This document shows, piece by piece, positions 15,232 to 35,632 of a stretch of DNA of 35,879 nucleotides. Within the stretch, counting starts at the first letter, position 1. Every line of letters starts with the position of its first letter. The DNA comes from an uncultured bacterium (GTDB lineage: Bacteria; Bacteroidota; Bacteroidia; Chitinophagales; Chitinophagaceae), in NCBI GenBank assembly GCA_903957405.1, contig CAJBPC010000003.1, positions 1 to 35,879 of the forward strand, read 5' to 3'. Below the pieces are notes generated by a model that saw only the letters and a program-made list of their open reading frames with translations, did not search any database and was not told the DNA's origin. A program made the translations under genes and the position numbers.

Positions 15232-18200
15232 ATGAAAACAACGAATGAAGCCCGGATGGGTATCGTTCCGAAGTTCCCTTTCAGAAAGGAGAACATCATT
15301 TTCGTATTCTTATCCGCCATCATCGCAGGAATGGCATCGATCCTTCTCGTGCAGAGATTCCTGGCACTACCCATCGATTACGCTGATTTCCTGGTCGGCA
15401 ACATGAGCTGGCATGGACAGACAAGGCTTCAGGACATCGTCAGCCTGCCGGCCTTTGTCATAGGATTTATCCTCGCCGGCCGGATCAGTATCAAAATTTT
15501 CTCAGACATCTCGCTGGCAGGCGGACAAGTGTATGAGAATGAACTCACCCAAGTACTCTCATGGTGGCTCATCCCAATGGCCGGACTCTTCGGAGGACTC
15601 CTCAGTCAGCAACCGACGGCCATGCTCTTCACGCTTCCCCTGGCACTTGCCGGACTGATCGCGACGGTCACGGCAGCACACCTGAACCTCCGACACCGGC
15701 AGCTCATGGCCACCGAGATCGGCACAGGCGTGCTGGCAGCCATGATGTTGGCAATCTTACCGGCAGGCATCTCCGCCCTCCTGGACCGTCTGCAGGCCTT
15801 CCCCCTCATGCCGGGCATCAGGGGTGGGATGCAACTCATTTTCTTCACATACCTGGCAGCCTGCATGCTGTTTTTTTACCTGGTGGCGAAGAAACCCGAA
15901 CTCTACAAAAAGCATCTCGCACAGGTAGTCGTGATTCCGCAGGCCGCAATCATACTTTTCTACCTGCTCATCATCCCTGACATGCACGTTGGTGAAACCG
16001 GACAATATGCGATTCCCTTCAGGGAATGGCTGCCGCTGTTGAGCATTGCACTCATGGGGATCGCGGGAAGAGACCTCTTCCAGAGATGGAAACAGTACAA
16101 GGATGCCGAGAACAATGACCTCGGCAAGCTATGCTCGCCTTGGGCCATCTTTGCGGTTGTCATCCTGCTCAAGACCGGAACGACTTCGCCTCCCGTGATC
16201 TCTTCAGATGATTTCCAATATGGTGAAAGCCTTTTAGGCTGGTGGAGCTACCGAGAGTTCGGCATGGTTCCTTACATCGATTATTTCCCGCCCAATGGAC
16301 TCTTCGTCGATGATTTGGCAGGCTTCTTCTCTTGGGTGTTTTTCGACGGCACGGCGGGTACGATCGATGAATCGCTACGGCTCATCATGACATTGACCCT
16401 GCTCGCTGCATTCATCGGTCTGCACAAAGCCACCAGGAGCATCGGCCTGTCGCTCGTGTCGGTATTGTTTTTTGCCTACAGCAATATGTACTGGAACAGT
16501 CTGAACTTTTTGCTTCTCGTGCCGCTTTTCACCCTTTTTCTGAAATATCCCGCAGATCCCGATTCCAGAAAATGGCTGCTGGCATGGCCTGCAATCGGTA
16601 TTCTACTGGTCCTGCTCGCACCCTCTCAGGGTTATATTTTCCTGTTGGCATCCCTGCCCGCCCTCATATACCACCTGCGGCACGCCGTTGCTGGAAAGCT
16701 ATCGAAAAAAACCATCTATATCACAGCCGGCATCGGACTGCTGAGCCTCGCTACACCCATACCCCGGATGCTTTACAGTGCCATTCGCCATTTGGTTGAG
16801 AAAATTGCCATCTATCCTCTTAGTTTCGGGACCGACTGGACAAAGGGCTATCTCACCGTTGCCGGCAATGACATCCCGTTGCTGAATTACATCCTGCTGG
16901 ACTTCTTCAGGATGAGTTGGATATGGGTCCTGTTGGCCGGATGCATCATATTCATGTTACTGATCCATAAAAGACGGCACTGGCAATACCTGGCACTCGT
17001 CGCATTGCCTGCGACATTGTTCATCCTGCTGATGACAGGTTATGCCATGGGTAGAATGGATATCCTCAACTCCTCCGGGCCCGGCATCCTAAGCAGTTTT
17101 TCCCTCACGATCCTCCTACCATTGTTGCTGGCGCCACTGCTCGCCAGATACCAAAAGATCCTGATGGCATCACTCATCGCATTTTTCTGTGCGGGAATTG
17201 GCAATCACCATCTCGGCTGGAGTGGACTGGGCAACGCATTGGAAAAAAACGAGGCTTTCAACCTCGCCGCTGCCGGGAAGATCGGAATCAACAACGTCGG
17301 ACTTGCGGAAATAGACCCACAGCATGCCGACAGACTCCTTCGCGTGAACGCCAACCTAAAAAAATACCTGAGGTACAGGGAACCCTACCTCGACCTCACC
17401 GGCAATAATGCGCATTACATGTATTTCGACAGACCCCCTGCCATGTCACTGACCGCACCCGTGAACCTGGTGTCTATTGCGCAACAGGAAAGGGAAGTGT
17501 CCAGGCTCAGGCAGGATCCGCCACAAATAGCCTTGCTGATGGCCGATAACAAAAGGGTTGGCGAGGGCAAACTGGCACTCAGGAACCATATACTCTATCG
17601 CTTTGTGCTATCAAGGTATCGGGCAGAACTGCACGACGGATATGTCTTCGCCTTTCTCGATACGGCAAGGCTTTCCACTGCCGCCATGACATTCATGCCC
17701 AGTGACCGAACCGATTCGGCATGGCTGAAAGGTGTGCACAGAAGACTTCCAGCAGTGATCATCAGGGATACCCTCGCCATAAAATTCCTGCGAACAGGAG
17801 ACAGGATCATTCTGCCTGACGGAAAGCCCGCACAGATCGGCAGGATCCTGCCTAAAGAGCAGGTGGTATGGCTTGACGGGAATTATTTTTCCCCGACCGC
17901 TTTTGATTCACCCAACCCCGTGCGGGTTATACTTGATGATTCCAGAAAGGCCGAACTGTCATGCCGACTGATGCAGCTGGCATGCTCCGACGAAGACCTG
18001 GCCCAGCTGCCGGTGACATGGGGACGATCCGCGAACAGCCTTGACAATCGGATGACACTGGTCCACACTTTCGATACCGGCAAGATCATATTGAAAAACA
18101 TCCGTTTCGAAAAGGGAGGATATCAACCCATGGATGACTCATCCTACATGGAGTTCCAACTTGCCGGAGCCGCCCTGAACGGCAAGCAAGCCGGACTGCT

Positions 18201-18483
18201 GAGTTTTGATTTCACGTCGATCGCAGCTGACTTGCCGGCACGCCGCATGCGCATCTCCTGGCTATCGGATGACAACAAGGAATGCGGAGCCGGTCAAAGC
18301 CTGATGATGACGGCCGCCAACGGCAGGCTGATCGTGCCGCTCGACGGATTCCCTTCGTGGCTCAATGCGAAAAAAATCTCAGCCATTCGCATCGAAATGG
18401 ATGAAACACCCGGGAGCAGTGCTTTCAACATCGCAAATATCCGTCTGGAACAGCGGATCATGACGACGACAGGGCTTGACTGA
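15232..18483 (+). CDS. Large multi-TM protein, putative GT-C-like glycosyltransferase with C-terminal soluble domain
   Basis: 1083 aa; many TM segments; SSDDFQYGESLLGWWSYREFGMVPYIDYFPPNGLFVDD resembles PMT/ArnT-type luminal motif; non-TM region from ~650 aa onward. Confidence 0.6.
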   Translation: MKTTNEARMGIVPKFPFRKENIIFVFLSAIIAGMASILLVQRFLALPIDYADFLVGNMSWHGQTRLQDIVSLPAFVIGFILAGRISIKIFSDISLAGGQVYENELTQVLSWWLIPMAGLFGGLLSQQPTAMLFTLPLALAGLIATVTAAHLNLRHRQLMATEIGTGVLAAMMLAILPAGISALLDRLQAFPLMPGIRGGMQLIFFTYLAACMLFFYLVAKKPELYKKHLAQVVVIPQAAIILFYLLIIPDMHVGETGQYAIPFREWLPLLSIALMGIAGRDLFQRWKQYKDAENNDLGKLCSPWAIFAVVILLKTGTTSPPVISSDDFQYGESLLGWWSYREFGMVPYIDYFPPNGLFVDDLAGFFSWVFFDGTAGTIDESLRLIMTLTLLAAFIGLHKATRSIGLSLVSVLFFAYSNMYWNSLNFLLLVPLFTLFLKYPADPDSRKWLLAWPAIGILLVLLAPSQGYIFLLASLPALIYHLRHAVAGKLSKKTIYITAGIGLLSLATPIPRMLYSAIRHLVEKIAIYPLSFGTDWTKGYLTVAGNDIPLLNYILLDFFRMSWIWVLLAGCIIFMLLIHKRRHWQYLALVALPATLFILLMTGYAMGRMDILNSSGPGILSSFSLTILLPLLLAPLLARYQKILMASLIAFFCAGIGNHHLGWSGLGNALEKNEAFNLAAAGKIGINNVGLAEIDPQHADRLLRVNANLKKYLRYREPYLDLTGNNAHYMYFDRPPAMSLTAPVNLVSIAQQEREVSRLRQDPPQIALLMADNKRVGEGKLALRNHILYRFVLSRYRAELHDGYVFAFLDTARLSTAAMTFMPSDRTDSAWLKGVHRRLPAVIIRDTLAIKFLRTGDRIILPDGKPAQIGRILPKEQVVWLDGNYFSPTAFDSPNPVRVILDDSRKAELSCRLMQLACSDEDLAQLPVTWGRSANSLDNRMTLVHTFDTGKIILKNIRFEKGGYQPMDDSSYMEFQLAGAALNGKQAGLLSFDFTSIAADLPARRMRISWLSDDNKECGAGQSLMMTAANGRLIVPLDGFPSWLNAKKISAIRIEMDETPGSSAFNIANIRLEQRIMTTTGLD

Positions 18484-18625: not shown

Positions 18626-18745
18626 CACGCAGGCTGCGCAACGATGGTAAACGCGACATGCTCAGAGGATAGCGAGGATCGCGAAAACCCGATTTTTCTT
18701 TTTCACCCCCATGTTGTAATTTTTACCTTCAAACCATTCCTCCAC

Positions 18746-20635
18746 ATGAAGCCATCCCTGAAAACCTGCATGCTGTTATTTTTTATGTATCTGAGCGGCG
18801 CGCTGCTGCAAGCCCAGGAAGGACCCGTGGCAGCCGATTTCAAGATGCCCCAACATCCGAGGATCCTCCTGTTTGCCGGCGAGGAGCAGGGCATTCGGAA
18901 TGCCGTATCCGGGGATCCGGAATGGCAGGCCATCCATGAGGCCATCCTGAGGGAGTCGGATAATATCATCGGACTGGAACCCATCAAACGCATACAGATC
19001 GGAAGGCGCCTGTTGGACAAATCCCGGGAAGCGCTGCGAAGGGTCTTCATGCTCTCGTACGCATCCAGGACGACCGGCGAAAAAAAATATTTCGTCAGGG
19101 CGGAAAAGGAGATGCTCGATATTGCGGCATTCAGCGACTGGAACCCGTCGCATTTCCTTGATGTTGCGGAGATGACCATGGCCATGGCCATTGGATACGA
19201 CTGGCTGCATGACAAACTGTCGGCGGCGTCGAAGACAGCCATCCGCGACGCGATCATGAAGAAAGGCCTGGAGCCCTCTATGGAGCCGCGTTACAGCAGT
19301 TGGCTGAAGGCCGAGCACAACTGGAATCAGGTATGCAACGCCGGCATGACCTATGGCGCCATGGCGCTCTACGAGGATCATCCCGTCTTCGCCAGGAATA
19401 TCATCAACAGAGCCATCGGGTCGATCGTGCTGCCCATGAAGGATTACGGCCCCGACGGCGTCTACCCTGAGGGGTACGGTTACTGGGGTTACGGCACCAG
19501 CTTCAACGTGATGTTCCTCAGTGCCATTGAGAAGCTATTTGGAAAAGATTTCGGACTGACCGGCGCACCCGGATTCCTTCAGTCCGGCAGGTTCATGGAG
19601 TTCATGACCGGCCCTTCCGGCAGCCCCTTCAATTATTCGGATGCCGGGAATAACGGAGGATTTCATCCCGCCATGTTCTGGATCGCGGATAAGGTCGGCG
19701 ACCCTTCTATCCTATGGGAAGAACGCAGATTTTTGAAAAATTACGGAGTCGACAGGCTCGTGGGCGACAGACTGTTACCGGCCATCATGCTTTGGCGCAA
19801 CGGACTGAAGATGGACAAGATCACGGAGCCGAAAATAAATATGTGGGTCGGCATGGGAAAGAATCCCGTCGCCATGATGCGTACCTCATGGACAGATCCG
19901 AATGCGATCTACCTCGCGATGAAAGGCGGTTCGGTATCCGTCAACCATGCACACATGGATATCGGATCATTCATCATGGAGGCCGATGGGGTGCGATGGG
20001 CGATGGACTTCGGCATGCAGAATTATGAATCCCTGGAATCCAAAGGCATACAACTTTTCGGAAGGGCGCAGAACGCTCAAAGATGGAGTGTGTTCCGCCT
20101 CACCAACCTTGTCCACAACACATTGGCGGTGGACAACCAGCATCAGATCGTCACAGGCACGGCGCCGATCGTTGCGCATAGCTCAGCCCCGGCATTCATG
20201 CACGCCGTCACCGACCTCTCAGAGATCTACAACGGGCAGGTGGCAAAGTCTGTACGCGGCATCGCCCTCGTCAACAAGCGGTTTGTGGTGGTACGCGACG
20301 AGGTCAAGACACTCGACCGGGAGACGACCATCCGATGGACCATGCTCACCCCGGCGGATGTGAAGATCTCCGGACCTGACAGGGCGATACTGACAAAAGA
20401 CGGAAAGACCATGCTGCTGCAAGTGGACGCACCCGGCAAAATGCAGATGCGCACTTGGTCCACGGATCCGCCAAACAGTTATGATGCCCCAAACCCGGGC
20501 ACCACACTCGTGGGATTCGAAGTGAAAGTGCCGGCAAATACCGAAACGGCCTTCACGGTGAAGCTGATCCCAGGAGGCAAGGCAGGCAAGGCGAAGATGA
20601 AGGTCCAACCATTGGACAGCTGGAAAAACCATTGA
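18746..20635 (+). CDS. Heparinase II/III-like polysaccharide lyase, secreted
   Basis: Signal peptide from MKPSLKTCMLLFFMYLSGALLQAQ; alpha-toroid EHNWNQVCNAGMTYGAMALYED; GGSVSVNHAHMDIGSFIMEADGVRWAMDFG; beta-sandwich C-terminus. ORF opens at 18644. Confidence 0.82.
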   Translation: MKPSLKTCMLLFFMYLSGALLQAQEGPVAADFKMPQHPRILLFAGEEQGIRNAVSGDPEWQAIHEAILRESDNIIGLEPIKRIQIGRRLLDKSREALRRVFMLSYASRTTGEKKYFVRAEKEMLDIAAFSDWNPSHFLDVAEMTMAMAIGYDWLHDKLSAASKTAIRDAIMKKGLEPSMEPRYSSWLKAEHNWNQVCNAGMTYGAMALYEDHPVFARNIINRAIGSIVLPMKDYGPDGVYPEGYGYWGYGTSFNVMFLSAIEKLFGKDFGLTGAPGFLQSGRFMEFMTGPSGSPFNYSDAGNNGGFHPAMFWIADKVGDPSILWEERRFLKNYGVDRLVGDRLLPAIMLWRNGLKMDKITEPKINMWVGMGKNPVAMMRTSWTDPNAIYLAMKGGSVSVNHAHMDIGSFIMEADGVRWAMDFGMQNYESLESKGIQLFGRAQNAQRWSVFRLTNLVHNTLAVDNQHQIVTGTAPIVAHSSAPAFMHAVTDLSEIYNGQVAKSVRGIALVNKRFVVVRDEVKTLDRETTIRWTMLTPADVKISGPDRAILTKDGKTMLLQVDAPGKMQMRTWSTDPPNSYDAPNPGTTLVGFEVKVPANTETAFTVKLIPGGKAGKAKMKVQPLDSWKNH

Positions 20636-20761: not shown

Positions 20762-23527
20762 ATGAACAGGATTTTTTCACGCCCTATTCGGGCCGCCAGG
20801 TTCGCATGGACCACCACAATGGTCATCCTGATTTTTTCCGGGACCATGACAGCACAACGGGTGCATCCGCATATCCTTGTACGACCCGAGGACAAGCCGG
20901 TCATCCTGAAAAAAATCAGTGAACAAGACTGGGCGAGGCTGGTGTATGACGAGATGCGGAAAGAAATCGCCCCGTATGTTGTCCGCCACCGCACCGACCC
21001 TGAATGGATCCTTAGCCGGTACCTCATGAACCGCATTCCGGGCAAACGATACACCCAATTCATTTCAGATGCCGAAGGAACGGCACTGACGGGATATGCC
21101 GGTGATGCGCCCTTCCCCACAGTTCGCGTTGCGCCCCATAAGCGTCCACCGATAAGCGCGGACGGGTACGGCTACAAGATGCCCGCCATAGAAGAGCTCC
21201 TGCCCTACGACACATCCATGACGATGATGATGCAAAGCACTGCGCCCGGAGGGAGAATGGAAAGGGTGGATCCGCAGACCTATGTGGACAACATCAACGG
21301 AGGCATCAACGAACTCGCCCTGCAGGCATCCGTGATCTACTGGCTCAGCGGGGATGAATCATACGCGCGGTTTGCAGCGGATATCCTCGTGCAATGGGCC
21401 AGGGGCGCCTACCACCAGTCACCCATCACGGGACCTTGCCGCACGGGTTTCCTTTCGATACAGACGCTGGGCGACGGCAGCTATGAGGCCATGCCGCTGA
21501 TACACGACTTCCTGTATGACTACCTAAGGAAAAATAAATATGAGACGAAATGGTTCGAGCCCGTCTTCGACAAGATGGCACACACGATGACCTTCAGGGG
21601 ATTCTGGAACAATAATTGGTTCGCGGCGCAAAGCATCATGATGGTTTTCTCCGCGCTCGCGCTCGAAGACGAGAGCCGGCGGGATTTCTACCTCGACTTC
21701 TACCTCTCGAAAGACACCATCAGCGGCGCATGCGGGCACCTCGCCCTGCCATCCGTAGTGAGCAAATGGCTCACCCCCGACGGACACTGGAAAGAACCCG
21801 GCGGATACCACAATTTTCCAGTGGGCAATCTGCTTCTGTCTGCAGTCGCCATGGAAAAAAACGGACATGATGTCTTTCGCCGATTCCCCGAACTGTTCAA
21901 GGCGTCGCATGTGATGCTCAAATATGCATTCCCCAACCTCATGAACCCCACATTCGGAGACACCGGCCCGTCATCGCAGAGTCCGGGATCATTGGAGATC
22001 GGAATGGCAATGGCGGAAAAATATCATGACACATCAGCAAGGCAACTGGCTTCGGTCCTGCAGGTGTTGATCGATAACAAACGCTATGAGAGAAGATCGG
22101 CGGGACTGTACGGACTGCTGACCCACCTGCCCGAACTTCCGAAAGCAGACACTAACGGTTACGCATGGCCGAGGAGCGGGGAGCTTGATTTCGCGAAGGC
22201 CTACCTTCAGCGGAACGGTACCGATAAACAGTCCGGGCTGATGTACATCGTACAGGGCGGCACATACAACCACAACCATGCGAACGGCATGTCCGTCGAG
22301 TTGTACGGTGCCGGCATGATCATGGGTCCAGACCCCGGAAACGGCCCCACATACGAGGCTCCGCTGCACGTACAATACTACACGCAGTGGGCCGCACACA
22401 ACACCGTCACCGCCGGCGGCGTGTCATCACCCATACCGGTCTTCAAAGGCGGAGGTGGCACAAAGCAGATCGGAGCGATCTCCCTGAAGGCGATGGAGCC
22501 CATGGCGGGAAAGGATGCCGTCTCCCCCAACCATTCATTCACCGATACCAGGTACAAGGACAAAGCAACGGGAGCGCTTCAGCAAAGAACGCTTGCCATC
22601 ATCCGTACCAGTCCGACGACCGGTTACTATACCGACATATACCGTTCCGCACATCCCGGCAGCAACGAATACGTATACCACAACATAGGGAACGCATTCC
22701 AGTGGCTCGATTCGGCGAGGATGCCGCTGCGCTCGGTTCCGACAGACTTCCCCCTGAGTAAAAAACCCATTGACCCTCCCGGATTCCGATTTATAAAAAA
22801 CATGCAGTCCATCGGTAGATCCGATAGGGGTGTGATCGCTTCCTTCAGCATCAGGGGAGACGATGCAGCGGAGAAAAATATGCAGGTGCATTTCGCTGCA
22901 GCAAAAGGCAGGACCTATTACAATGGATTGGCCCCCGAGGCGAAGACGACCGATCCTGCTTACCGAAAATGGAAGATCCCGACCATCATCGCACGTCAGG
23001 AAGGAGAGGCATGGAAGCGACCATTCGTGGCAGTGTACGAACCCTTCACGGGTGAAGGCAAGCACACGATCGAAGAAATATCCGTCCTGGAATTATCTGA
23101 CCCCGGAGACTTCACCGTACTGCAGGTGAGGCACCGCGACAACGGCAAGGAACTGATCTTCCAGTCAGTGGATGGGACGAGATCGTATCAAAAAGGAGCA
23201 TGGCGGTTCACCGGCCGATTCGGTGTCGTCGGACTGAAAGGAGACCAGCCCGAATACATGTACATCGGGAGCGGATCTGCCTTGGCATACGGGACATGGT
23301 CGATACAGATCCCTTCAGGTGAAGGCGCGGCGGAGCTGAGATTTTCCAACGGCCATGTGCACATCAGCTGCAACCAGGAAACAAGCATCGCGATGGATGG
23401 CAAAAAGCCAGGATCCGTCAGACTTTTGAAAAATGGCGTCGGCATACCCCTTGCGATGCAACAAACAATAAGCGGCGTACGCTTCTCCGTACCCGCCGTT
23501 TCTGACGCACTGTTGATCATAGAATGA
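20762..23527 (+). CDS. Heparinase II/III-like polysaccharide lyase, secreted, large
   Basis: 921 aa; signal peptide, alpha-toroid (NNNWFAAQSIMMVFSALAL, GGYHNFPVGNLLLSAVAM), YIVQGGTYNHNHANGMSVELYG and YTQWAAHNTV resembling HepII/III catalytic regions. Confidence 0.75.
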   Translation: MNRIFSRPIRAARFAWTTTMVILIFSGTMTAQRVHPHILVRPEDKPVILKKISEQDWARLVYDEMRKEIAPYVVRHRTDPEWILSRYLMNRIPGKRYTQFISDAEGTALTGYAGDAPFPTVRVAPHKRPPISADGYGYKMPAIEELLPYDTSMTMMMQSTAPGGRMERVDPQTYVDNINGGINELALQASVIYWLSGDESYARFAADILVQWARGAYHQSPITGPCRTGFLSIQTLGDGSYEAMPLIHDFLYDYLRKNKYETKWFEPVFDKMAHTMTFRGFWNNNWFAAQSIMMVFSALALEDESRRDFYLDFYLSKDTISGACGHLALPSVVSKWLTPDGHWKEPGGYHNFPVGNLLLSAVAMEKNGHDVFRRFPELFKASHVMLKYAFPNLMNPTFGDTGPSSQSPGSLEIGMAMAEKYHDTSARQLASVLQVLIDNKRYERRSAGLYGLLTHLPELPKADTNGYAWPRSGELDFAKAYLQRNGTDKQSGLMYIVQGGTYNHNHANGMSVELYGAGMIMGPDPGNGPTYEAPLHVQYYTQWAAHNTVTAGGVSSPIPVFKGGGGTKQIGAISLKAMEPMAGKDAVSPNHSFTDTRYKDKATGALQQRTLAIIRTSPTTGYYTDIYRSAHPGSNEYVYHNIGNAFQWLDSARMPLRSVPTDFPLSKKPIDPPGFRFIKNMQSIGRSDRGVIASFSIRGDDAAEKNMQVHFAAAKGRTYYNGLAPEAKTTDPAYRKWKIPTIIARQEGEAWKRPFVAVYEPFTGEGKHTIEEISVLELSDPGDFTVLQVRHRDNGKELIFQSVDGTRSYQKGAWRFTGRFGVVGLKGDQPEYMYIGSGSALAYGTWSIQIPSGEGAAELRFSNGHVHISCNQETSIAMDGKKPGSVRLLKNGVGIPLAMQQTISGVRFSVPAVSDALLIIE

Positions 23528-23542: not shown

Positions 23543-25672
23543 ATGAAAATTAAAATCCGCTCCGCACTTCCCATCGCTTTTAGGTGGGCATTTGCAATCC
23601 TGATGACATGGTTCGCCGATGGAAACCTACAGGGCCAATCTGTCAACGATCTCGAGACCATCAGAAAAAGGATCATCGCCGACCAGCTTGCGCCATCAGC
23701 GGGCAAGGTGGAAGCCATGCAGTATGCGTCCTCCCAGCTTCCAGACGGGAGCTGGGCCGACATCAACTATACCGACACCTCACGCACCGGCTTCCAGCAT
23801 CGTTTTCACTTGGATCGGATGCTGTATCTATCCCGTGCATTCAGAAAGCCCGGCTCCCCGCTGTATGGCGACCCCGCCGTCAGGAAGGCTGCCATGCAGG
23901 CATTGGACCACTGGATCGCAAAGGATTACCAGTGCCAGAACTGGTGGTGGAATGAGATGGGGACACCCGGTTCGATGATCAACACCTTGCTGATATTGGA
24001 CGAGGAACTCTCACCGGCACAACGGAAAGGAGGGCTTAAGATCGCTGCAGGAGCGCGTTTCGACGGCTTCGGCGCAAGGCCGGGAGGCGACCTGATACAG
24101 ATCGCGGGCATGATCGGAAAACAGGCGCTGTTCAAGCGCGACATCGCACTGTTCGACAGCGTCGTGAAAATCATGACAAAAGAGATCAAAGTGTCGGAAG
24201 GAAGGGGTTTGCAGGCCGACATGAGCTTTCACCACAGGACGGACAACGTCATCTCGACCCTTACTTACGGTACCGGCTACGCGCAGACATTCGCATACTG
24301 GGCCTCCAGGATCGCGGGCACGGGATTCTCGTTCCCGGAAGCTTCGACAAAGCTCCTGACCGACTACTATCTGGATGGCATTTCAAAGTCGATGGCATTC
24401 GGGAAATACCCCGATGTCGGTGCCCGAAACCGCGACATGAGCCGAAGGAATGAGGAACACAAAGCATCCTCGGAAACCCCCGCCAACCTTGCCAGGGTGT
24501 CATCCTACCGGAAAAAAGAACTCGAAGAGCTGGTGCGCATCCGAAAAAACGAGCTGAAACCCGACCTGTCATGGAGCCGATTTTTCTGGCATTCGGAATA
24601 TTACACGCACCAGCGCCCGGGATGGTTCGCATCCGTCCGCATGCATTCATCCCGCCAGTACAGCATGGAATCTCCCCATAATGAGGAAGGTTTGCTTCAC
24701 CATCACTTCGCGGATGGATCCAACTTCGTGAGTATGTCGGGAAATGAATATGACGGCATCTTCCCGGTATGGGACTGGCAGAAGATCCCGGGCGCCACCA
24801 TCGTCCAAAAGCCTGCACTGCCTCACTGGAAAGAGATCGCGAAAAAAGGGCTTTCTGATTTTGTGGGCGGTGTCACGAACGGAAGGATCGGAGCGGCAGC
24901 GGAGGATTTCAAGAGTCCTCATGACCCATTGTCTGCACGCAAGGCATGGTTCTTTTTTGAAGATGAGTACGTGTGCCTCGGTGCAGGCATCCGATCCGAT
25001 GCGGCGTATCCGGTATCCACCACCATCGACCAGCGCAACCTTGTCGGGGATGTTCAGATCATAACGGGAAAGGCTAACCTAAAACTGGAAAAAGGCGTGT
25101 CGTCCATGAGGCGCGTGACAGGCATCACCCATAACGGCATCGCCTATGTGTTTCCGGTGATGACCGGCGTACAGGTCAGTGCCGCCATGGCGAAGGGGAA
25201 CTGGCGCAGGATCAACCACCAGGACTGGGCGACGGAAGAAACCGTGGAGAAGGAAGTGTTCACCCTTCGAATAGACCACGGCATCAAGCCGGCGTCTGCA
25301 GTTTATGCGTACATGGTCGTACCGGGTGCAAAGGCGGGGGTAGCACAAAGCTTCAGTGGCCGCAGGCTGCGCATCCTGTCGAACACGCCCTCCCTGCAAG
25401 CCGTTCGGCATGACGGGAAAGGCATTGTCCAGGCGGTGTTCTACAGCCCCGGAACAGTGACGATCGCACCGGGAATGACGCTTACGGTGAGTGGCCCTTG
25501 CATGCTGATGGTGGAAATGGAAGGTGTGAATCTGCGCAGGATGACCGTTTCCGATCCCTCCAGAAAACAGAGATCGCTAACCGTCGAGGTCACCGCACAG
25601 GATACAGTACCCCGCACCGTTAGCCTTCCTGAAGGGATCATGGCAGGCAGCAGCGTGGATGTGTCGCTCTGA
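23543..25672 (+). CDS. PL8-family polysaccharide lyase (chondroitin AC / hyaluronate / xanthan lyase type)
   Basis: NWWWNEMGTPGSMINTLLIL, GLQADMSFHHRTDNVISTLTYGTGYAQTFAYWA, MSRRNE-type motifs; 15 bp after the previous gene. Confidence 0.88.
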   Translation: MKIKIRSALPIAFRWAFAILMTWFADGNLQGQSVNDLETIRKRIIADQLAPSAGKVEAMQYASSQLPDGSWADINYTDTSRTGFQHRFHLDRMLYLSRAFRKPGSPLYGDPAVRKAAMQALDHWIAKDYQCQNWWWNEMGTPGSMINTLLILDEELSPAQRKGGLKIAAGARFDGFGARPGGDLIQIAGMIGKQALFKRDIALFDSVVKIMTKEIKVSEGRGLQADMSFHHRTDNVISTLTYGTGYAQTFAYWASRIAGTGFSFPEASTKLLTDYYLDGISKSMAFGKYPDVGARNRDMSRRNEEHKASSETPANLARVSSYRKKELEELVRIRKNELKPDLSWSRFFWHSEYYTHQRPGWFASVRMHSSRQYSMESPHNEEGLLHHHFADGSNFVSMSGNEYDGIFPVWDWQKIPGATIVQKPALPHWKEIAKKGLSDFVGGVTNGRIGAAAEDFKSPHDPLSARKAWFFFEDEYVCLGAGIRSDAAYPVSTTIDQRNLVGDVQIITGKANLKLEKGVSSMRRVTGITHNGIAYVFPVMTGVQVSAAMAKGNWRRINHQDWATEETVEKEVFTLRIDHGIKPASAVYAYMVVPGAKAGVAQSFSGRRLRILSNTPSLQAVRHDGKGIVQAVFYSPGTVTIAPGMTLTVSGPCMLMVEMEGVNLRRMTVSDPSRKQRSLTVEVTAQDTVPRTVSLPEGIMAGSSVDVSL

Positions 25673-25676
25673 GGTG

Positions 25677-27752
25677 CTATTGCATGATGATCGTCTTGTC
25701 CCTACCGATTTTTTCCTGGGCCTCCTGATTGCCGTTCCCTGCATATGCGTTGTTGCTTACGGACAGGTTGGTTGTCGCATGGGATTCGACACCGTATCCC
25801 GTATTGAACCTTATGACATTGTCATGGACTTTGACGTGCATTGACCCGCGGTGCAGGAATTCCATCATCACCCCGCTGCGGTCGTTTGCCTCTATGAGGT
25901 TTCTGGAAGCACTGATGTTCCGGCTTTCGGAAACCAGCAGACCGAAGTATCCGTTGCGGGCGATCTCGCAGTCTGTCACGGATGCGGTGTCGCAATGGTC
26001 AAGGGCAACGCCGCAGCCATAGGGAGATGTCACCAGCCGGCATCCGCTGACAAGGATATTCCTGACATGTCGGAGCAGCAGGTTATGCTGCAGTCTCGGG
26101 CCGGGGACGATGCTGCTCCCATTCTCACTGAAATCGCATCGATCGATCCTGACATGTTCCGCACCCGCGATATGTACCCCGTCGAAAGTGGCATTCCTGA
26201 CCGTCAGGTTGATGAGTGCGATGTTCTTCATCTGACCTTCGCGCAGGGCACGGAAGAGGATGCCTCCCCGATTGTAGCCGCTCTTGAAAGAGCGGTTCGT
26301 ATTCGGATCTGATCCCGGGTCGGTGCGGTTGGAAACCTCGATCACCAGGTCGCGGATGGTCACATCGTGCATGTCGATGTCAGCATTCACCATCGCTTCC
26401 CTCATACCAGAGGCAGGATCGAGGTGCAGGATCGTGTGAATCCCTTCGCCCCTGATCGTGATGCCGGATGGTATTTTCAATGTTTGAGGGAACGTGTGGA
26501 TGCCATTTTTCAAGACTAAAGAAAGACCTTTTCCGGAGAGCGCGTCGAGTGCCTGCTGGATGGATTGCCCGGGTTCCAAAATGACCGAGCCTGCGGGGAT
26601 TTCCATGTCCGATGGGACTGTTGTCGCACCGCTTATGTATGCGGTTTTAGAAGGCTTGGGAGCCCCCTTATTGGCCATTGGGGATGAGAATGACGCACGG
26701 ACTGCTGTCAGTACGCTCCGGCCGGCTTTCTGCCTCAATGAATCTGCTGCACGTTTCGTCCATGGCATCTCCACCCCTTTGGCGGCATAATGCCGATAGA
26801 CGTATTCATAATTATCCCGAAGCCGTTTTTCCCGTTCAGATATCGTGCAATAGCAATGCGGGTTTTCGCCGAAAAGGAAGCGAGCGGTGTATTCAAAGCC
26901 CAGGGCGATGCGGTCGTCACCGATGGAAAAGAGATCCACTCCTTGCGTGAAAGCGATGCGGGCCGCCCCGGAGAATTCATCCAGTCCCAGCTGCACATGG
27001 CCCTGATCGCGAGGACTCTCCTGACACTGTCCGTTTGGGTAGATGTACTTGAAGATGCCGCCATTGACGGGTGCATGCAGGAAATTATCGACGGCATTGC
27101 TGAATATTTCACGGTTATCGGTGAAGATGCCGATGGCGAGTAAGGAATGGATGATGGCACCATTCCAGTTGCCATTCGCCGTAGGGAAATATTGCCGGAG
27201 CAGGGGATAATGGACTGTCATCAGCATGTGGCTGAAAGCATCGATGGATGCTGGTTTCCAGCCGGCATCGGTGTAGCGCAGGATCTCTGCGGCATTGCAG
27301 AAAAGATAGCCTGTCAGTCCGGCCAGAAGTTTCGCATCGTTGTAGTCAAAATCCCATATCCTTGATGACCATGCGTTGATGATACCAATGGACTTGTCCG
27401 CATAGCGGCGCTCCCCCGTCAGGTACCACATGAGTGCGCAATCGTACGCCATCCGCGCACCATTCATGAGGTCCTCCCCTCCGATATTGGGTTTGGCGTA
27501 TGGACCGCGCAGGACATGGGTGTGCGGTCTGATGGTAAATTCCTTGTCGGCAGATTCCTTCATCCTTTGGAACGCAGCCTTGTAGGGTTCACGACCTTCT
27601 GCGACAAATCTTTTCATCTCGGCAAGGTCTTTGGCAGACTGGTCGATACCGGGATGCAGGAAACCCTGCCCCTTAAGGGTAAGGGCGTTGAAAGTCATGA
27701 TCATCATCAGGATGACTGAAAATACTGAGGGAAGAATTGATCGCTTCATCAT
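25677..27752 (-). CDS. Two-domain protein: alginate-lyase-type (PF05426-like) alpha/alpha domain fused to right-handed beta-helix
   Basis: N-half: GGEDLMNGARMAYDCALMWYLTGERRYADK...NGNWNGAIIHSLLAIGIFTDN...QCQESPRDQGHVQLGLDEFSGAARIA; C-half: repeated short beta-helix coils (VRNATFDGVHIAGAEHVRIDRCDFSENG... NGYFGLLVSESRNISASRNLIEANDRSGVMM). Likely start MMKRS at 27752 (ORF opens at 27794). Confidence 0.82.
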   Translation of the reverse strand: MMKRSILPSVFSVILMMIMTFNALTLKGQGFLHPGIDQSAKDLAEMKRFVAEGREPYKAAFQRMKESADKEFTIRPHTHVLRGPYAKPNIGGEDLMNGARMAYDCALMWYLTGERRYADKSIGIINAWSSRIWDFDYNDAKLLAGLTGYLFCNAAEILRYTDAGWKPASIDAFSHMLMTVHYPLLRQYFPTANGNWNGAIIHSLLAIGIFTDNREIFSNAVDNFLHAPVNGGIFKYIYPNGQCQESPRDQGHVQLGLDEFSGAARIAFTQGVDLFSIGDDRIALGFEYTARFLFGENPHCYCTISEREKRLRDNYEYVYRHYAAKGVEMPWTKRAADSLRQKAGRSVLTAVRASFSSPMANKGAPKPSKTAYISGATTVPSDMEIPAGSVILEPGQSIQQALDALSGKGLSLVLKNGIHTFPQTLKIPSGITIRGEGIHTILHLDPASGMREAMVNADIDMHDVTIRDLVIEVSNRTDPGSDPNTNRSFKSGYNRGGILFRALREGQMKNIALINLTVRNATFDGVHIAGAEHVRIDRCDFSENGSSIVPGPRLQHNLLLRHVRNILVSGCRLVTSPYGCGVALDHCDTASVTDCEIARNGYFGLLVSESRNISASRNLIEANDRSGVMMEFLHRGSMHVKVHDNVIRFNTGYGVESHATTNLSVSNNAYAGNGNQEAQEKIGRDKTIIMQ

Positions 27753-27780
27753 GTGTCGGATGCTGGGGTTAGGAAAACGA

Positions 27781-27815
27781 AAAAGGTCATGCATCCATCA
27801 GACACATGACCTTTT
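27781..27815 (-). terminator. Stem-loop between lipoprotein gene and lyase/beta-helix gene
   Basis: AAAAGGTCATG (27781-27791) / CATGACCTTTT (27805-27815) 11-bp perfect arms; minus-strand 3' side reads CCTTTTTCGTTTT. Confidence 0.6.
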
Positions 27816-27839: not shown

Positions 27840-28832
27840 CTATTTTGTGGTCATGTTATACCGGAGCATGCTGACGACCGCACTGCCGTTCACATTGACC
27901 GAGTTGATAAACACATAGGCCCTGAATTTCTTGTCGGCTGTTTCCACCCAAACACCAGCCTCTGCCCTCAATCCGGTGGCGAAATTGGAAGCGGTGGTGA
28001 GATCCACCTGCTGGAAGTCTTTGTCATCCACGTATATCCCGAATTGCAGACCCGCGAGGTTTCTATCCTGCAGGTTCCAAACTTTAAGAATCTTGCTGTT
28101 GTTGGATACGCCGGCCGGGAGTGTGACACCCGGGAGGTATGCAGGATCGGCGGCTGGGGCCACAAGACCGTGGGTGAATGCGACCGGTGTGGTTCTGTAG
28201 AGGTAAACCAGGTCGATGTTTGCAGCATTCGAAGCGGCGCTGGCGGCATTGTACACCGCCATGTCAGCGATGGAGATGAAGGCCATGTTGTTGTTCGAAA
28301 CGGCAAGGCCCTTTTTGATCTCCATCTTGGAAACGTCATAAGGGCCCATTTTATAGGTCGCGGTTTTGCCGTCAGAGCCAGTTGCGGTGAAAGTGAAGGA
28401 CACCTGTTTGCCCATGGCTTCCTGAGGGACGATGTAGAAATATCGCAGGGAAGCCGCATTCGTATCTACGCTGAAGGTCACTTTCGTACTGTTCCCTGTG
28501 GTTACCGACGGACTACCGACCGTCACAGGCACGTCCACACCGCTGGTGTTGGTGTAGTAGGACCGGTGTTCGAGGTAAGTCCCAGTAGCGCCAGGGATGG
28601 ATGCCTGCACTTCAGCGGAGGCGATCTTGCCGATGGATTTCGGGATGGCCATTGCATAGACGAACTCTATCGGGAGGGATACGATATTCGGCCCCAGCGT
28701 CCGTTTGATGCCATCGCTGGTGATGGTTGATATGGGATCGGGGATCTTGTATTCATCCTTCTCACAGGATGCGAACAGTCCTGCCATCAGCAAACCTGCC
28801 ATATATGTTCTGCACTTGATAATATTGAGCAT
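27840..28832 (-). CDS. Putative surface lipoprotein of the PUL (DUF4466-like?)
   Basis: SPII signal (MAGLLMAGLFASCEKDE), 330 aa, downstream of susCD; family assignment uncertain. Confidence 0.65.
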   Translation of the reverse strand: MLNIIKCRTYMAGLLMAGLFASCEKDEYKIPDPISTITSDGIKRTLGPNIVSLPIEFVYAMAIPKSIGKIASAEVQASIPGATGTYLEHRSYYTNTSGVDVPVTVGSPSVTTGNSTKVTFSVDTNAASLRYFYIVPQEAMGKQVSFTFTATGSDGKTATYKMGPYDVSKMEIKKGLAVSNNNMAFISIADMAVYNAASAASNAANIDLVYLYRTTPVAFTHGLVAPAADPAYLPGVTLPAGVSNNSKILKVWNLQDRNLAGLQFGIYVDDKDFQQVDLTTASNFATGLRAEAGVWVETADKKFRAYVFINSVNVNGSAVVSMLRYNMTTK

Positions 28833-29286: not shown

Positions 29287-31125
29287 TTAGCGCCAGGGGA
29301 TGTTTTGTGTCAGATTCGGGTTTCTGTCCCTTTCCGTTGGCGGGATCCTGAAGATGTAGTTCTGCTGGTACACCCTGTCGATCGTGTTTTGATAATACCG
29401 TTGTTGTTGTGCGCCCCATGTATCGATCCTCCATACGCCAACGCCTCCGGGAGGTCCCCATGTCTTTTCAATGGCCCTCCACCTGCGAAGGTCAAAACCG
29501 CGATGTCCTTCAGCGACGAGTTCGATGATGCGTTCTTGCTCTATGGCGTCAAAGAAGGCCTGTTTGCTGGCGAATTTATCCGCTTTCAGCGCCGGGAGGT
29601 TGCCCCTGGCGCGTATTTTATTCAGTCCGGCGACAGCATCCGCCAGCGGGCCGCTTACTTCGTTGCTGGCTTCGGCGTACATGAGGAATACATCTGCCAG
29701 GCGCATGACAGGCCAGGCGAAATCCCCTTCTGAACGTCCGAGTCCTTCATAGTTGCGGACAAATTTCCGGAAAATGTACCCGGAATTGGATCCATCCGTA
29801 TTGTACGAGATATATTTCACCCCGCCGATGGTGACGTTGGCTGCCCATGTCCGGTAGATGAACGGGGAGAAGCCTGTGGACTTCAGTGCGGTGAGTCCGA
29901 TGCACATCTCATAATCCCACAAGATGGAGGCCTTCATCCGGTAGTCACGGTTGGCGTAGGAGTTGGGGTTCACCGCGGAGTTGAGCGTTGTGCGTGCAGC
30001 AGCATTTGTCGTCGGATTCAATGGTATCAGCTTGGGGGCGAATTCGCCCGTTGTCGTCAGCTGATAGCGGTCGGCAATCTCATAGCGGGGTGAGGCCCAT
30101 GCTTGAGAGCCTTCGATGGTACGACCTGAGAAGTCCCGCATCAGCTCCTCGCCCTGTGATGGGTTGGTGGGGGTGCCTGAGTGGTTGAAAGCCATGATGA
30201 CTTCGGGATTGCCATTCGCCTTCGGTGTGAAGAGTTCGAAATAGTTCGGCAGGATGTCTGCTTTTCCGAGGGCGTCTATCTGACCCGGATCACCATTTTT
30301 ATAGAGGGTGAGACCGAAATCGTTCATCACGGATTTGAAATCGGCTGCGGACGCTGCGAAGGCCGTCTGTGCCTCACCTGAATTCTGCTGGAAGCCTTCG
30401 AGCTCAGGCCATCCGTTCTTCTTCCAGCTGCCCCAGTAGAGGTTTAGTTTTCCGCGGAATGCGAGGGCTGCGGGCTTGGCGGCACGCCCTACTCCTACCG
30501 CTTTAGCCGGCAGCTTTGCCACGGCGTAGTCGAAGTCGGCCATGATGGAGTCCTTCACCTGGCCGATCGGCAAGCGGGTGAGCTGGGTCACTTCACTGTT
30601 GTCGTATATGATCTTCCCGATATAGGGCACGTCACCCCACATGGAGATCAGCCTGAAGTAGGTCATTCCGCGCAGCAGCCTGGCCTCCGCAATGATCGTC
30701 TCGAGGTTGGCCAGGGATGCACCCGATGCATTGGGCAGCATCTTCAGCGTGATGTTCTCGATCACATAGTTCGCACGGTGTACCGATCCGTAGAGGTACT
30801 GGAAATACTTGTCGAAGCTTGCACCATAACCGGAAGGGTCATAGTTGCCGCCCTGATAGGCATCGCCCCTGAGGATGCTACCGCTCGTGGCGCTGGTGCC
30901 TCTGACGCGGGTGTATTCAGACTGCCCTTCGAAGTAGTAGTCACGGTCGAAGACCGCCCTGGCAGATGCGTAAGCCGACATCAGCGCAATGGTAGCATCC
31001 GCTTCCGTCTTCCAGAATACCGAGGCATCCAGCAAGCCGGTGGGTGTCTGATCAAGCAGCTCTTTCTTGCAGGAGACATGCATCAGCATGATCACGCCGA
31101 GAAAAAGGGTCGTGTATCTTTTCAT
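29287..31125 (-). CDS. susD-like: RagB/SusD family nutrient uptake outer membrane lipoprotein
   Basis: LMHVSCKKELLDQTPTG lipobox; FFDAIEQERIIELVAEGHRGFDLRRWRAIEKTWG SusD C-terminal signature. ORF opens at 31146. Confidence 0.96.
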   Translation of the reverse strand: MKRYTTLFLGVIMLMHVSCKKELLDQTPTGLLDASVFWKTEADATIALMSAYASARAVFDRDYYFEGQSEYTRVRGTSATSGSILRGDAYQGGNYDPSGYGASFDKYFQYLYGSVHRANYVIENITLKMLPNASGASLANLETIIAEARLLRGMTYFRLISMWGDVPYIGKIIYDNSEVTQLTRLPIGQVKDSIMADFDYAVAKLPAKAVGVGRAAKPAALAFRGKLNLYWGSWKKNGWPELEGFQQNSGEAQTAFAASAADFKSVMNDFGLTLYKNGDPGQIDALGKADILPNYFELFTPKANGNPEVIMAFNHSGTPTNPSQGEELMRDFSGRTIEGSQAWASPRYEIADRYQLTTTGEFAPKLIPLNPTTNAAARTTLNSAVNPNSYANRDYRMKASILWDYEMCIGLTALKSTGFSPFIYRTWAANVTIGGVKYISYNTDGSNSGYIFRKFVRNYEGLGRSEGDFAWPVMRLADVFLMYAEASNEVSGPLADAVAGLNKIRARGNLPALKADKFASKQAFFDAIEQERIIELVAEGHRGFDLRRWRAIEKTWGPPGGVGVWRIDTWGAQQQRYYQNTIDRVYQQNYIFRIPPTERDRNPNLTQNIPWR

Positions 31126-31157
31126 ATCGTTCATCGGAAATTTCATTGTTGCAGGGT

Positions 31158-34100
31158 TTAGAAGCTCAGGTTGACTGCTAATGAATAGGACTTGTTGATG
31201 GGGTAAACGTTGTTGTCATCCCCTTGTTTTTCGGGGTCTAGACCGCGGTATCTCGTCATTGTGCCAAGGTTCTCGGCAGAAGCCACCAGTCGGAGGTTTG
31301 AGATGCCGAGTTTCGACAATCCCCTGCCGGGTATGGTATAACCGACTTGTACGTTCTTCACCCTCAGATAGCTCATATCATCCAACCAAAAAGTACTGGA
31401 CTGGCGGTTATTGCCACTGCCACCGAGCCTTGGCCAGCTGCCATCCCGGTTCTCCCATGTCCATGGGTTGTTCCAATGCTCCCAAGAGGCGGCATATCGT
31501 GCATTGTTGAAGTTGGTATTGTTGTAGATATTCAGCCAGTAATCCTTCCGGCCTGTGGCGCCTTGGAGGAAAACCGTGACATCGAATCCCTTCCAGGTAA
31601 CGAAACCATTCAACGCGAAAGTGGTCGTCGGACGCTCTTGCTGGATGTTGGGATAGGCCTTTCTGTCATCCGCAGTGATGCGGCCGTCACCGTTGAGGTC
31701 TTTAAGGAGCACATCCCCCGGTGAGGCGCCTTGCGGTGTGGAATTGTATATGTCCTGCCAGGTCTGGGCGAGTCCTTTGTCTTCATAAGCATACACGAAC
31801 TGGTATGGCATCTCCAGGAAGATGTTGCCTCTGAGCAGCAACGTATTCCATGACTCGAGGTTGTTGTGGTTGTACGCGAAGTTGGCATTCACTCCGTACA
31901 TGAGTTTTCCGATCCTGTCTTTCCAGCTGAGATCGAATTCAACACCGTTGTTCCGCAAGTTCCCGATGTTCGTCCTTGGTGCGGGGCTGTATGCGCCGAT
32001 CAGGAAGATGGAGAACTCAGACGGGCGGTTCATCCCGGAGGTCAGACGGTTGTAATAATCGACGGTGGCCGTCAGCCTGTTATTGAGGAAGGCGAGGTCA
32101 AGGCCCACATTGAGTACGGTGGAAGTCTCCCATGTCAGGAAGCGGTTGATCATCTTGCTGTTGGCGAAACCGCGCTGAACGCTGGATCCGATCACATAGT
32201 TGATGTTTGCCAGGGTCTCTTTCTGTTCGTAGCGACCGACACCGCTGTTATTTCCAAGGCTGCCATAAGACACACGCAGCTTACCGTTGGTCAGGAACTT
32301 GTCCGTGAACCTTTGGATGAATTTCTCCTCTGTGAATTTCCAACCCACCGCCACGGAAGGGAAGAAACCAAAGCGGCTTCCATCCAGGAACTTTGAGGAG
32401 CCATCCACGCGGATATTGGCTTCCAGGAGATACTTGTTATACGCGGTGTAGTTGACCCTGCCGATATAAGACTGCAGTCCTTCCGCTGTGGAGTTGCCGG
32501 AGGTTGACTGGATATCCGTCAGTGCAGCGTTGATCTCCGTCAGGCTGGGATGCAGACGATCATTCCGTGAACTTCCCTGTGAGCGATCATACCAATACTC
32601 CTCGCTGTAAACGAACAGTGCTCCGATGTCATGGTCGCGGCCGATCTTCTTGTTGTAGTTCAGACGACCGGTGAGCATCGTCTTGTATCCGGTGGCAGTG
32701 CTGTTGGATATACCGGCATTTTGGCCCACATAGGTGCGGCTTCCGAAGGATTCTGTCTGGAAGTTGTAGGCCTGGTTCGGTGTATTCGCCGCATACTGAA
32801 ACTGGTTGTAATAGTTGAGGGCATAATCGGCGCGCGCTGTCAGTCCCTTGATGGGCGTCCAGTCAAAATACATCTGGGTATTCGCCTCCTGGCGTGTCCT
32901 CCGCGTGAGGCTGTTGATGTATAAAGTGTAAGGGTTGTAGGCTTGCGGATCCTCGCCATAGGCCATCACACCACCGAAGTTGCCAGACGCCGGATCATAG
33001 GGCAGCAGACCGGAGATGGCATACTGCATATCGTTGCCTGCCGTGTTGGAAGCATCCGGGTCATTGAATCCTTCGTCCAGTGCGAAAACATAATTGGACC
33101 AGTTGCCGTTGAAACGGAAACCGACATTCATGTTGTTCCTGATCTTGGAATCGAAGTTGAAGCGGGCGTTGTACTGCCTGAAATCATTATTGATCTGCAG
33201 CCCTTGTTCATCCTTCACACCGGCGGAGACGAAGAAATTATTCGTCTCGCTGCCGCCAGTGGCCGAGACGTTATAGTTCTGGTAGCGTCCCTGACGCATG
33301 ATGATGTCCCACACATCCGTGTTGGGGAACTTCACCGGATCGATCATGCTTTTTGCCAGCCACTCATCCACCGTGCCATTCCTAAAGAGTTGGTTGCCCG
33401 GCAATGTCGTGACAGCGGTCCTGTTTTGCTGGAGCGTGAGTGCACGGGAATAGTCATCCATGAAGTCTTGTCCGCGTGTGGGCAAGATGATTGAGCTGTT
33501 GCTGACGAAATCCAGCCTGGTTTTCTTCATGCCCTTACCGCTTCGGGTGGTGATCAGGATCACCCCGTTGGCCGCCCTGGATCCGTAGACCGAAGCGGAT
33601 GTAGCATCTTTCAGGACAGATATGGTCTCGATGTCGTTGATGTTGATGCGGTTGATGTCCACATCCGGCATTCCGTCCACTACGATCAATGGACCGGCAT
33701 TGTTGACAGTACCCAGACCGCGGATGATGAGGCTTGCATCGTTATTACCGGCCATGCCGGAAGACTGAACCGCCTGCAGACCCGGCACAAGGCCTGTAAG
33801 TGCGGCGGATGCGTTGGGCAATGCCCGGCTGGTGATCTTTTCATCCACACCTACGGTCGAAACGGAACCGACCAGGTTGACTTTCTTCTGGCGACCGTAA
33901 CCGACCACCACGACATCATTCATGGCCGAAGAAGAAGGCGTCATCACCACGATGTAGGCATCCCGTTGGTCGACTTTAATGGTGAATGACTCATGCGTGG
34001 CCGAAGACAGGAGTATTTCCGCACCGGGATTCGCAATGATCTTGAAATTGCCAAGGGCGTCTGTCGTAGTGCCCGACGCACTCCCCTTGACCATCACGGA

Positions 34101-34253
34101 GATGTTGGCCAAAGGCTCCCCGGCAGGATCTTTCACCGTGCCGGTGATCGTTTTCTGCTGTGCCTGTGAAGCAAGCGAAGAAAAGATCAGAAAAAAAATA
34201 AATGAAAAGACGACCTTGAAGATGGTCGAACTTTTGCATGGATAAAATCTCAT
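31158..34253 (-). CDS. susC-like: SusC/RagA family TonB-linked outer membrane protein
   Basis: ITGTVKDPAGEPLANISVMVKGSASGTTTDALGNFKI; MNDVVVVGYGRQKKVNLVGSVS; SIISVLKDATSASVYGSRAANGVILITTRSGK-type plug; C-terminal LVASAENLGTMTRYRGLDPE...SLAVNLSF. Confidence 0.97.
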   Translation of the reverse strand: MRFYPCKSSTIFKVVFSFIFFLIFSSLASQAQQKTITGTVKDPAGEPLANISVMVKGSASGTTTDALGNFKIIANPGAEILLSSATHESFTIKVDQRDAYIVVMTPSSSAMNDVVVVGYGRQKKVNLVGSVSTVGVDEKITSRALPNASAALTGLVPGLQAVQSSGMAGNNDASLIIRGLGTVNNAGPLIVVDGMPDVDINRININDIETISVLKDATSASVYGSRAANGVILITTRSGKGMKKTRLDFVSNSSIILPTRGQDFMDDYSRALTLQQNRTAVTTLPGNQLFRNGTVDEWLAKSMIDPVKFPNTDVWDIIMRQGRYQNYNVSATGGSETNNFFVSAGVKDEQGLQINNDFRQYNARFNFDSKIRNNMNVGFRFNGNWSNYVFALDEGFNDPDASNTAGNDMQYAISGLLPYDPASGNFGGVMAYGEDPQAYNPYTLYINSLTRRTRQEANTQMYFDWTPIKGLTARADYALNYYNQFQYAANTPNQAYNFQTESFGSRTYVGQNAGISNSTATGYKTMLTGRLNYNKKIGRDHDIGALFVYSEEYWYDRSQGSSRNDRLHPSLTEINAALTDIQSTSGNSTAEGLQSYIGRVNYTAYNKYLLEANIRVDGSSKFLDGSRFGFFPSVAVGWKFTEEKFIQRFTDKFLTNGKLRVSYGSLGNNSGVGRYEQKETLANINYVIGSSVQRGFANSKMINRFLTWETSTVLNVGLDLAFLNNRLTATVDYYNRLTSGMNRPSEFSIFLIGAYSPAPRTNIGNLRNNGVEFDLSWKDRIGKLMYGVNANFAYNHNNLESWNTLLLRGNIFLEMPYQFVYAYEDKGLAQTWQDIYNSTPQGASPGDVLLKDLNGDGRITADDRKAYPNIQQERPTTTFALNGFVTWKGFDVTVFLQGATGRKDYWLNIYNNTNFNNARYAASWEHWNNPWTWENRDGSWPRLGGSGNNRQSSTFWLDDMSYLRVKNVQVGYTIPGRGLSKLGISNLRLVASAENLGTMTRYRGLDPEKQGDDNNVYPINKSYSLAVNLSF

Positions 34254-34335: not shown

Positions 34336-35523
34336 TTATAGAATCCATTTCTTGTAACGGTGCATTGCCTCCAGAAAATAGTAGTCGCCGTAGGTCAGCG
34401 GCTGGTCGACTTCTGATTTCGCCAGAAGGTGACCCACTCCATGCATGAGGATGAATCCCCCGTTCTCACCCGGCTTAGCCCTATAAGCGTTTGACCCTAG
34501 TTTCAGGATGATCTGTTTGGCCGTCTCGACGTATTTCTTCCGTTCCTTTCCTTTGGTATACCGTGATAGTTCCAGTAAGCCGGAGGCGATGACGGATGCG
34601 GCAGATGCATCGCGCAATGCGTTGGGGATGTCCGGCGCGTTGAAATCCCAGTAGGGGATATTGTCTGATGGCATGTTGGGATGCTCCAATAAGTACTTGA
34701 TGATATTCCTTGCATGGTCGAGGTAGCGCTTATCCTTTTCAAAGCGATACATCATCGTGAATCCATAAAAGCCCCATGCCTGTCCGCGCGACCATGCGGA
34801 GGCATCATTGTAGCCCTGATGGTTCTTGCCTTTGAATGCACCCGTCTCCAGGTCGTAGTCGAGCACGTGGAAAGCGCTGTGATCGGGGCGATAATGGTTC
34901 TTTAGCGTGGCGTTCGCATGGTTCAAGGCGATCTCCCTGAATTTGGGATCTCCACCCTGCTGCGTCACCCAGAGCAACAGCTCGAGGTTCATCATGTTAT
35001 CGATGATGACCGGGCAGTTGAAATTTTGGTTCTTGTTCCAGCTCTGTATCGATTTTATCTGCGGGCGATACCGTGTGATGAGCGACATGGCCGCCGTATC
35101 GATGGTCTTTTTTACAGAAGGGTCCTGGAACAGCCGGTAGGCGTTTCCAAAACTGCAGTACATCATGAAGCCCAGGTCGTGGTTGCCGGTATAGTGCTTC
35201 ATCTTTTCCTGGATGGATAGTCTCTTCTTTGCAATTTCCAACACCTGCCCATCGCCGGTGTGTTCATAAATGTAGAGCATGCTTCCCGGAAAAAACCCGC
35301 TCGTCCACCAACGGGTATCACTTGGGACGACCTTTCCCGTCTCCTTGACGAAACTGCGCGGCATCATGTCAGATGGAACCTGTGCATCCAGCAGTTTGTA
35401 CTGGGCAGCTGCATTGCGGAACTGTTCGTCGATGAACGGCCCCATATCCTGGGCCGTTATTGTTGCGGGAGTAAAAATGACAAAACACAGCACCAATAGG
35501 TGCAGCATGACGAATTTTTTCAT
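34336..35523 (-). CDS. Glycoside hydrolase family 88 (unsaturated glucuronyl hydrolase), secreted
   Basis: RWWTSGFFPGSMLYIYEHTGD, HDLGFMMYCSFGNAYRL, DNMMNLELLLWV, GYNDASAWSRGQAWGFYGFTMMYR; signal peptide from MKKF at 35523. Confidence 0.94.
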   Translation of the reverse strand: MKKFVMLHLLVLCFVIFTPATITAQDMGPFIDEQFRNAAAQYKLLDAQVPSDMMPRSFVKETGKVVPSDTRWWTSGFFPGSMLYIYEHTGDGQVLEIAKKRLSIQEKMKHYTGNHDLGFMMYCSFGNAYRLFQDPSVKKTIDTAAMSLITRYRPQIKSIQSWNKNQNFNCPVIIDNMMNLELLLWVTQQGGDPKFREIALNHANATLKNHYRPDHSAFHVLDYDLETGAFKGKNHQGYNDASAWSRGQAWGFYGFTMMYRFEKDKRYLDHARNIIKYLLEHPNMPSDNIPYWDFNAPDIPNALRDASAASVIASGLLELSRYTKGKERKKYVETAKQIILKLGSNAYRAKPGENGGFILMHGVGHLLAKSEVDQPLTYGDYYFLEAMHRYKKWIL

Positions 35524-35632
35524 GAGCAAGGAAGGTTGTGGGGTGAAAATTAAGGTGAATTGATGATATCCCATAAACATATATGAAGATTTATTTCAGA
35601 CCAAGTCTCGTGCAGTCCGCGTCGATTGAAAA

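Follow-up and report, generated by a model that had tools for sequence, protein, structure and literature searches.

A conserved fusion of a PF05426 toroid lyase-type domain and a right-handed beta-helix in a polysaccharide utilisation locus of Chitinophagaceae

The DNA analysed here (the window, a stretch of 35,879 nucleotides from an uncultured freshwater Chitinophagaceae bacterium) encodes a protein in which a helical toroid domain of the PF05426 (Alginate_lyase) family is joined to a right-handed beta-helix. The parts are of known kinds, and the fused architecture is real and conserved. With a probability of roughly 0.6, we consider the protein to be a secreted polysaccharide lyase, probably periplasmic, whose active site would lie in the toroid and whose beta-helix would form a second module, working in a locus that serves the use of a uronic-acid polysaccharide of glycosaminoglycan or glucuronan type. 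The enzyme type is conserved and seems not to have been characterised, and the uronan locus around it is widespread. It raises the questions of whether a histidine can stand in for the catalytic tyrosine of toroid lyases and which function a beta-helix of the epimerase type takes on once attached to a lyase.

The fusion gene is an open reading frame (ORF) of 705 aa at 25677-27794 on the minus strand, and residue numbers throughout refer to this full-length protein. The initial annotation had given its extent as 25677-27752, of which the lower limit holds and the upper one falls within the ORF near an internal Met-Met, the full ORF ending at 27794. Translation probably starts at Met15/16, which is plausible because an N-terminal extension precedes the Sec-type signal. 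The gene and its parts were delimited as follows.

25677..27794, minus strand: fusion gene with signal region, helical toroid lyase-type domain, linker and right-handed beta-helix (ORF, Pfam, AlphaFold)
27669..27794, minus strand: residues 1-42, an N-terminal extension followed by a Sec-type signal (judged by inspection from a hydrophobic stretch and from aligned relatives whose start lies nearer the signal)
26769..27668, minus strand: N-half, helical toroid, residues 43-342, with the PF05426 core at 26877-27464 (Pfam, AlphaFold, Foldseek)
26589..26768, minus strand: variable linker and start of the beta-helix, residues 343-402 (low conservation)
25680..26588, minus strand: C-half, right-handed beta-helix, residues 403-705, with the mannuronan C5-epimerase A-module as closest fold (Pfam, AlphaFold, Foldseek)

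Membership in both Pfam families was clear: PF05426 spans residues 111-306 (2.3e-10) with 40.8 bits against a gathering cut-off of 22.2, and PF13229 (Beta_helix) spans residues 539-689 (2.1e-15), above its gathering score. The linker was clearly the least conserved segment, with a mean column entropy of 1.90 compared with 0.97 for the N-half and 1.36 for the C-half. The AlphaFold model of the full-length protein, built on a 24-sequence alignment (mean pLDDT 87.5, pTM 0.88), was largely helical to about residue 362 and formed a right-handed beta-helix from about residue 403, and the C-half modelled by itself gave a beta-helix again (pLDDT 86.0). When the full model was searched with Foldseek, (alpha/alpha) lyases (3nfv, BoPL38, A1-III) were matched, as were beta-helix enzymes (AlgE4, AlgE7-type, RbmB); the toroid fold expected of CAZy PL38 was recovered with a target TM of up to 0.63. 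For the C-half, mannuronan C5-epimerase A-modules ranked first (AlgE4, E 4e-10), an AlgE7-type epimerase/lyase reached a TM of 0.70 over the query, and the right-handed beta-helix typical of mannuronan C5-epimerases (AlgE/AlgG) is accordingly a predicted property of this half. Profiles were needed for such relationships at the sequence level, phmmer with the full protein against the PDB having returned a chance match only. The proposal, first made from the letters of the DNA, that an alginate-lyase-type toroid is followed by a beta-helix was thus confirmed by two Pfam families above cut-off and by a two-domain model with both folds, and the domain boundary had been placed correctly.

Both Pfam families were matched by all 24 aligned relatives, which excludes a chance fusion. 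In a tree of 59 toroid domains, whose root was placed for drawing only, the fused proteins formed one clade (support 95/100, recovered in 94% of the bootstrap trees), and a single gain of the beta-helix is likely. A chimeric assembly artefact was ruled out by this clade together with the occurrence of the fusion in at least 24 aligned relatives. A scan of 60 near genomes turned up relatives in 17, all belonging to the window's own genus, and a species-level genome collection yielded 36 loci with relatives, most of the closest of which have both halves; the architecture is kept across Chitinophagaceae, other Bacteroidota and one Kiritimatiellota genome. Toroid relatives lacking the beta-helix are common. 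When 398 phylum members' genomes were scanned with the C-half profile (E 1e-20), the two matches both lay in ORFs of about 700 aa and none occurred outside the fusion, which speaks against a C-half circulating alone. The architecture had been called unusual at the outset; this stands insofar as no description of a toroid joined to a beta-helix was found in the open-access papers searched, but the fusion is conserved in Chitinophagaceae and other Bacteroidota, and fusion to further domains is frequent among PF05426 modules. Other members of the toroid clade carry a DUF4979, CBM_3, ricin-type lectin, fn3 or 3keto-disac_hyd domain.

Two segments of the toroid carry the residues that would matter for catalysis.

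27165..27170, minus strand: Asn209-Trp210, aligned to the carboxylate-neutralising Asn-Trp of PL40 (invariant in 24 fused relatives; profile alignment; PMC12915356)
26997..27023, minus strand: QESPRDQGH, residues 258-266, with His266 at the catalytic Tyr position of related lyases (alignments)

Over 22 divergent relatives, N209, Q258, E259, R262, D263 and H266 were invariant. The profile comparison with the family of the PL40-like neighbour encoded in the same locus (95% probability, E 3.2e-8) placed N209-W210 opposite N285-W286 of that neighbour and H266 opposite the PL40 Tyr. His266 likewise occupied the Tyr position, with Trp210 at the His position, in the alignment to 3nfv and in that to a canonical PF05426 protein of the same genome (L050), an alignment weak by itself. 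Hence, of the signatures of the CAZy families, the Asn-Trp neutralising pair of PL40 is present as N209-W210, the Tyr and His catalytic pair of PL38/PL5 is absent by the alignments to 3nfv and L050, and the PL40 combination of a Tyr acid with a His base supplied by a C-terminal beta-sheet domain is replaced by His266 at the Tyr and by a beta-helix as C-half. An assignment to PL38 by sequence was discarded, as BoPL38 was reached by the 22-sequence profile only at E 0.076 over 37 residues, a figure that concerns the BoPL38 comparison only. By these alignments, the N-half belongs to a divergent PF05426 clade with an altered active site.

In the mechanism that we propose, Asn209-Trp210 would neutralise the uronate carboxylate, Arg262 would stabilise it, and His266, in the place of the usual catalytic Tyr, would serve in beta-elimination as the base or the acid. 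The beta-helix would be a fixed second module of epimerase-like fold, whose conserved Arg, His and Glu residues would most likely hold the polyanionic chain and guide it into the toroid, after which a GH88-like hydrolase would take over the unsaturated oligosaccharides. However, the toroid may be inactive, because the usual Tyr is missing and its His partner is replaced by Trp. A degenerate toroid that no longer cuts, in a protein acting as a carbohydrate-binding or scaffold component of the locus, would agree with these replacements and with RiPL8 of Roseihalotalea indica, in which the PF05426 module is dispensable and without detected function (PMC13027841), an analogy that could count against an active toroid. 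This reading is very unlikely, since N209, E259, R262, D263 and H266 are invariant in the 22 divergent relatives, unlike the residues of a decaying site. Moreover, a protein that combines 3keto-disac_hyd and PF05426 as RiPL38 does (L075) has the QExxRDxxH motif, which suggests that activity is possible with such altered sites, with the proviso that L075 and RiPL38 are different proteins.

The relation to PL40 opens another alternative. In the ulvan lyase Uly1040, roles have been assigned to Asn245-Trp246 and Tyr305, the base His485 is contributed by the C-terminal domain and the cavity lies at the domain interface (PMC12915356). By analogy, the beta-helix could replace the PL40/PL35-type C-terminal beta-sheet domain and give its His570 to the toroid as a catalytic residue, thereby forming a composite site between the halves; the PL40 Asn-Trp pair in the N-half is compatible with this arrangement, as is the full-length pTM of 0.88, which suggests fixed packing. 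Nevertheless, many members of the toroid clade without any beta-helix still keep Asn-Trp and RDxxH, so the toroid does not need the beta-helix, and we regard a composite site as quite unlikely.

Regarding the C-half, two segments deserve to be located.

26292..26309, minus strand: DPNTNR loop, residues 496-501, with D, P, N and R invariant; a low-confidence loop (alignment, AlphaFold)
26082..26087, minus strand: His570-Asn571, an invariant pair in the beta-helix (alignment)

The invariant charged residues of this half are D496, R501, H570, R586, E610, R613 and E635. Catalysis in PL6 lyases depends on a Lys and an Arg. No invariant Lys was found in the C-half among the aligned relatives, and a PL6-type lyase, which the initial annotation had considered as a second cleaving activity, was rejected on this ground. 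The epimerisation that it had also raised fared no better by motif, as all 24 relatives lack DPH, around which the catalytic motif DPH(D/E) of the AlgE and AlgG mannuronan C5-epimerases is built (PMC4444821). The third suggestion, substrate gripping, is likely: the conserved Arg/His/Glu set suggests uronate binding in a candidate groove. A beta-helix with a new, differently built active site is possible. In a bifunctional enzyme, it would be a second active site, either a uronan C5-epimerase or a second lyase, in both cases on the epimerase fold but with another catalytic set near His570, Arg586 and Arg501, and both the best fold matches (AlgE4 and the AlgE7-type epimerase/lyase) and the invariant charged residues, including those of the DPNxxxR loop, are in line with it. 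Nonetheless, the missing DPH and Lys weigh against such an enzyme, and hydrolases and tailspikes use beta-helix folds as well, the Foldseek list being mixed, which makes it unlikely. More broadly, one chain might pair the toroid lyase, with His for Tyr, with an epimerase-fold beta-helix that either has a new catalytic residue set, allowing cutting and C5 inversion, or lends its His to a composite site; we hold this to be unlikely.

The reading of a toroid lyase with a binding module also draws on the genes around the fusion, and the locus was read up to the contig end at 35879.

18644..20635, plus strand: PL35 glycosaminoglycan lyase, closest solved relative GAGase II (8KHV, 848 bits)
20762..23527, plus strand: PL40-like lyase, closest solved relative Uly1040, keeping Asn285-Trp286, Glu345, Tyr349 and His504
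23543..25672, plus strand: PL8-type lyase, closest solved relative chondroitinase AC
27840..28832, minus strand: DUF4466 lipoprotein, probably a surface glycan-binding protein (PF14725, 1.5e-128; lipobox by inspection)
29287..31146, minus strand: SusD-like glycan-binding lipoprotein (Pfam)
31158..34253, minus strand: SusC-like TonB-dependent transporter (profile match)
34336..35580, minus strand: GH88-like unsaturated uronyl hydrolase (PF07470, 9.4e-13)

The SusC, SusD, DUF4466 and fusion genes follow one another in a row, with the GH88-like gene upstream and the PL8-, PL40- and PL35-like lyases on the other strand; a SusC/SusD pair accompanied by CAZymes identifies a polysaccharide utilisation locus, and the same gene block recurs in relatives, some of them with BNR_4 genes. 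The PL40-like neighbour retains those residues for which roles were assigned in Uly1040. In pairwise alignment, the PL8-type neighbour has Asp where chondroitinase AC has Asn175. Beside the locus, at 15232-18483, a membrane-like protein of 1083 aa matched no Pfam or NCBIfam family.

Since the locus holds PL35-, PL8- and PL40-like lyases together with a GH88-like enzyme, a polysaccharide of glycosaminoglycan or glucuronan type is a more probable target than alginate, as far as neighbours can indicate. The label of alginate, taken from the Pfam family name, is therefore probably misleading as to the substrate. Hyaluronan, chondroitin sulfate and heparan sulfate are substrates of the PL35 family of GAGase II (PMC12088678), and RiPL38, a lyase with a PF05426 domain, cleaves the first two of them (PMC13027841). 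The BNR_4 genes of sibling loci and the PL40-like gene would also fit a rhamnose-uronate, ulvan-like target. Pfam scans of genes in the window and in the sampled sibling loci revealed no sulfatase.

The nearest described parallel is the Roseihalotalea indica locus, which contains PL8, PL35 and PL38 lyases (PMC13027841). As in the window, PF05426 occurs there in multi-domain lyases of a SusC/SusD locus with PL8 and PL35, but its partner in RiPL38 and RiPL8 is 3keto-disac_hyd or PL8 instead of a beta-helix. BoPL38 (8BDQ) and 3NFV (BACOVA_01668) have the same toroid fold, with a target-normalised TM of about 0.6, and, unlike the fusion, are single-domain proteins; BoPL38 uses Tyr298 and His243 (PMC13169297), whereas the His266 of the fusion was assigned to the Tyr place by alignment to other relatives. 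With Uly1040 (PMC12915356), the toroid is homologous by profile, via the PL40-like neighbour, and the Asn-Trp pair is shared, whereas the Tyr is exchanged for His266 and the C-terminal beta-sheet domain with its His base for the beta-helix. AlgE4 and the AlgE7-type epimerase/lyase (2PYG, 8JA4) share the right-handed beta-helix of the C-half and are its best fold match, but at about 15% identity, and the C-half differs from them in lacking DPH and in being joined to a toroid.

Other arrangements of these modules were observed. In Bacteroidia, a triple fusion of GH92, PF05426 toroid and beta-helix was found by Pfam (locus L036, 7745-11935), with two further cases by similarity (L035 and L039), and another single ORF (L037, 3610-7554) joins PF05426 toroid, beta-helix and Hepar_II_III lyase. 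A 1020-aa protein of Bacteroides caecigallinarum (L041, 9956-13015) combines a PF05426 toroid with a long C-terminal part without Pfam match, which resembles, as judged by eye, a different beta-helix. The fusion gene at 10022-12105 of locus L033, and that of L060, is broken into two overlapping reading frames by a frameshift or an assembly error. The SusD-DUF4466-fusion block is also present in a locus titled Lachnospiraceae (L034), probably mis-binned Bacteroidota DNA. Finally, in Flavobacterium algicola (L042), a free-standing beta-helix (13122-14318), a weaker relative of the C-half, is encoded directly after a toroid lyase gene of the same clade (10013-12934).
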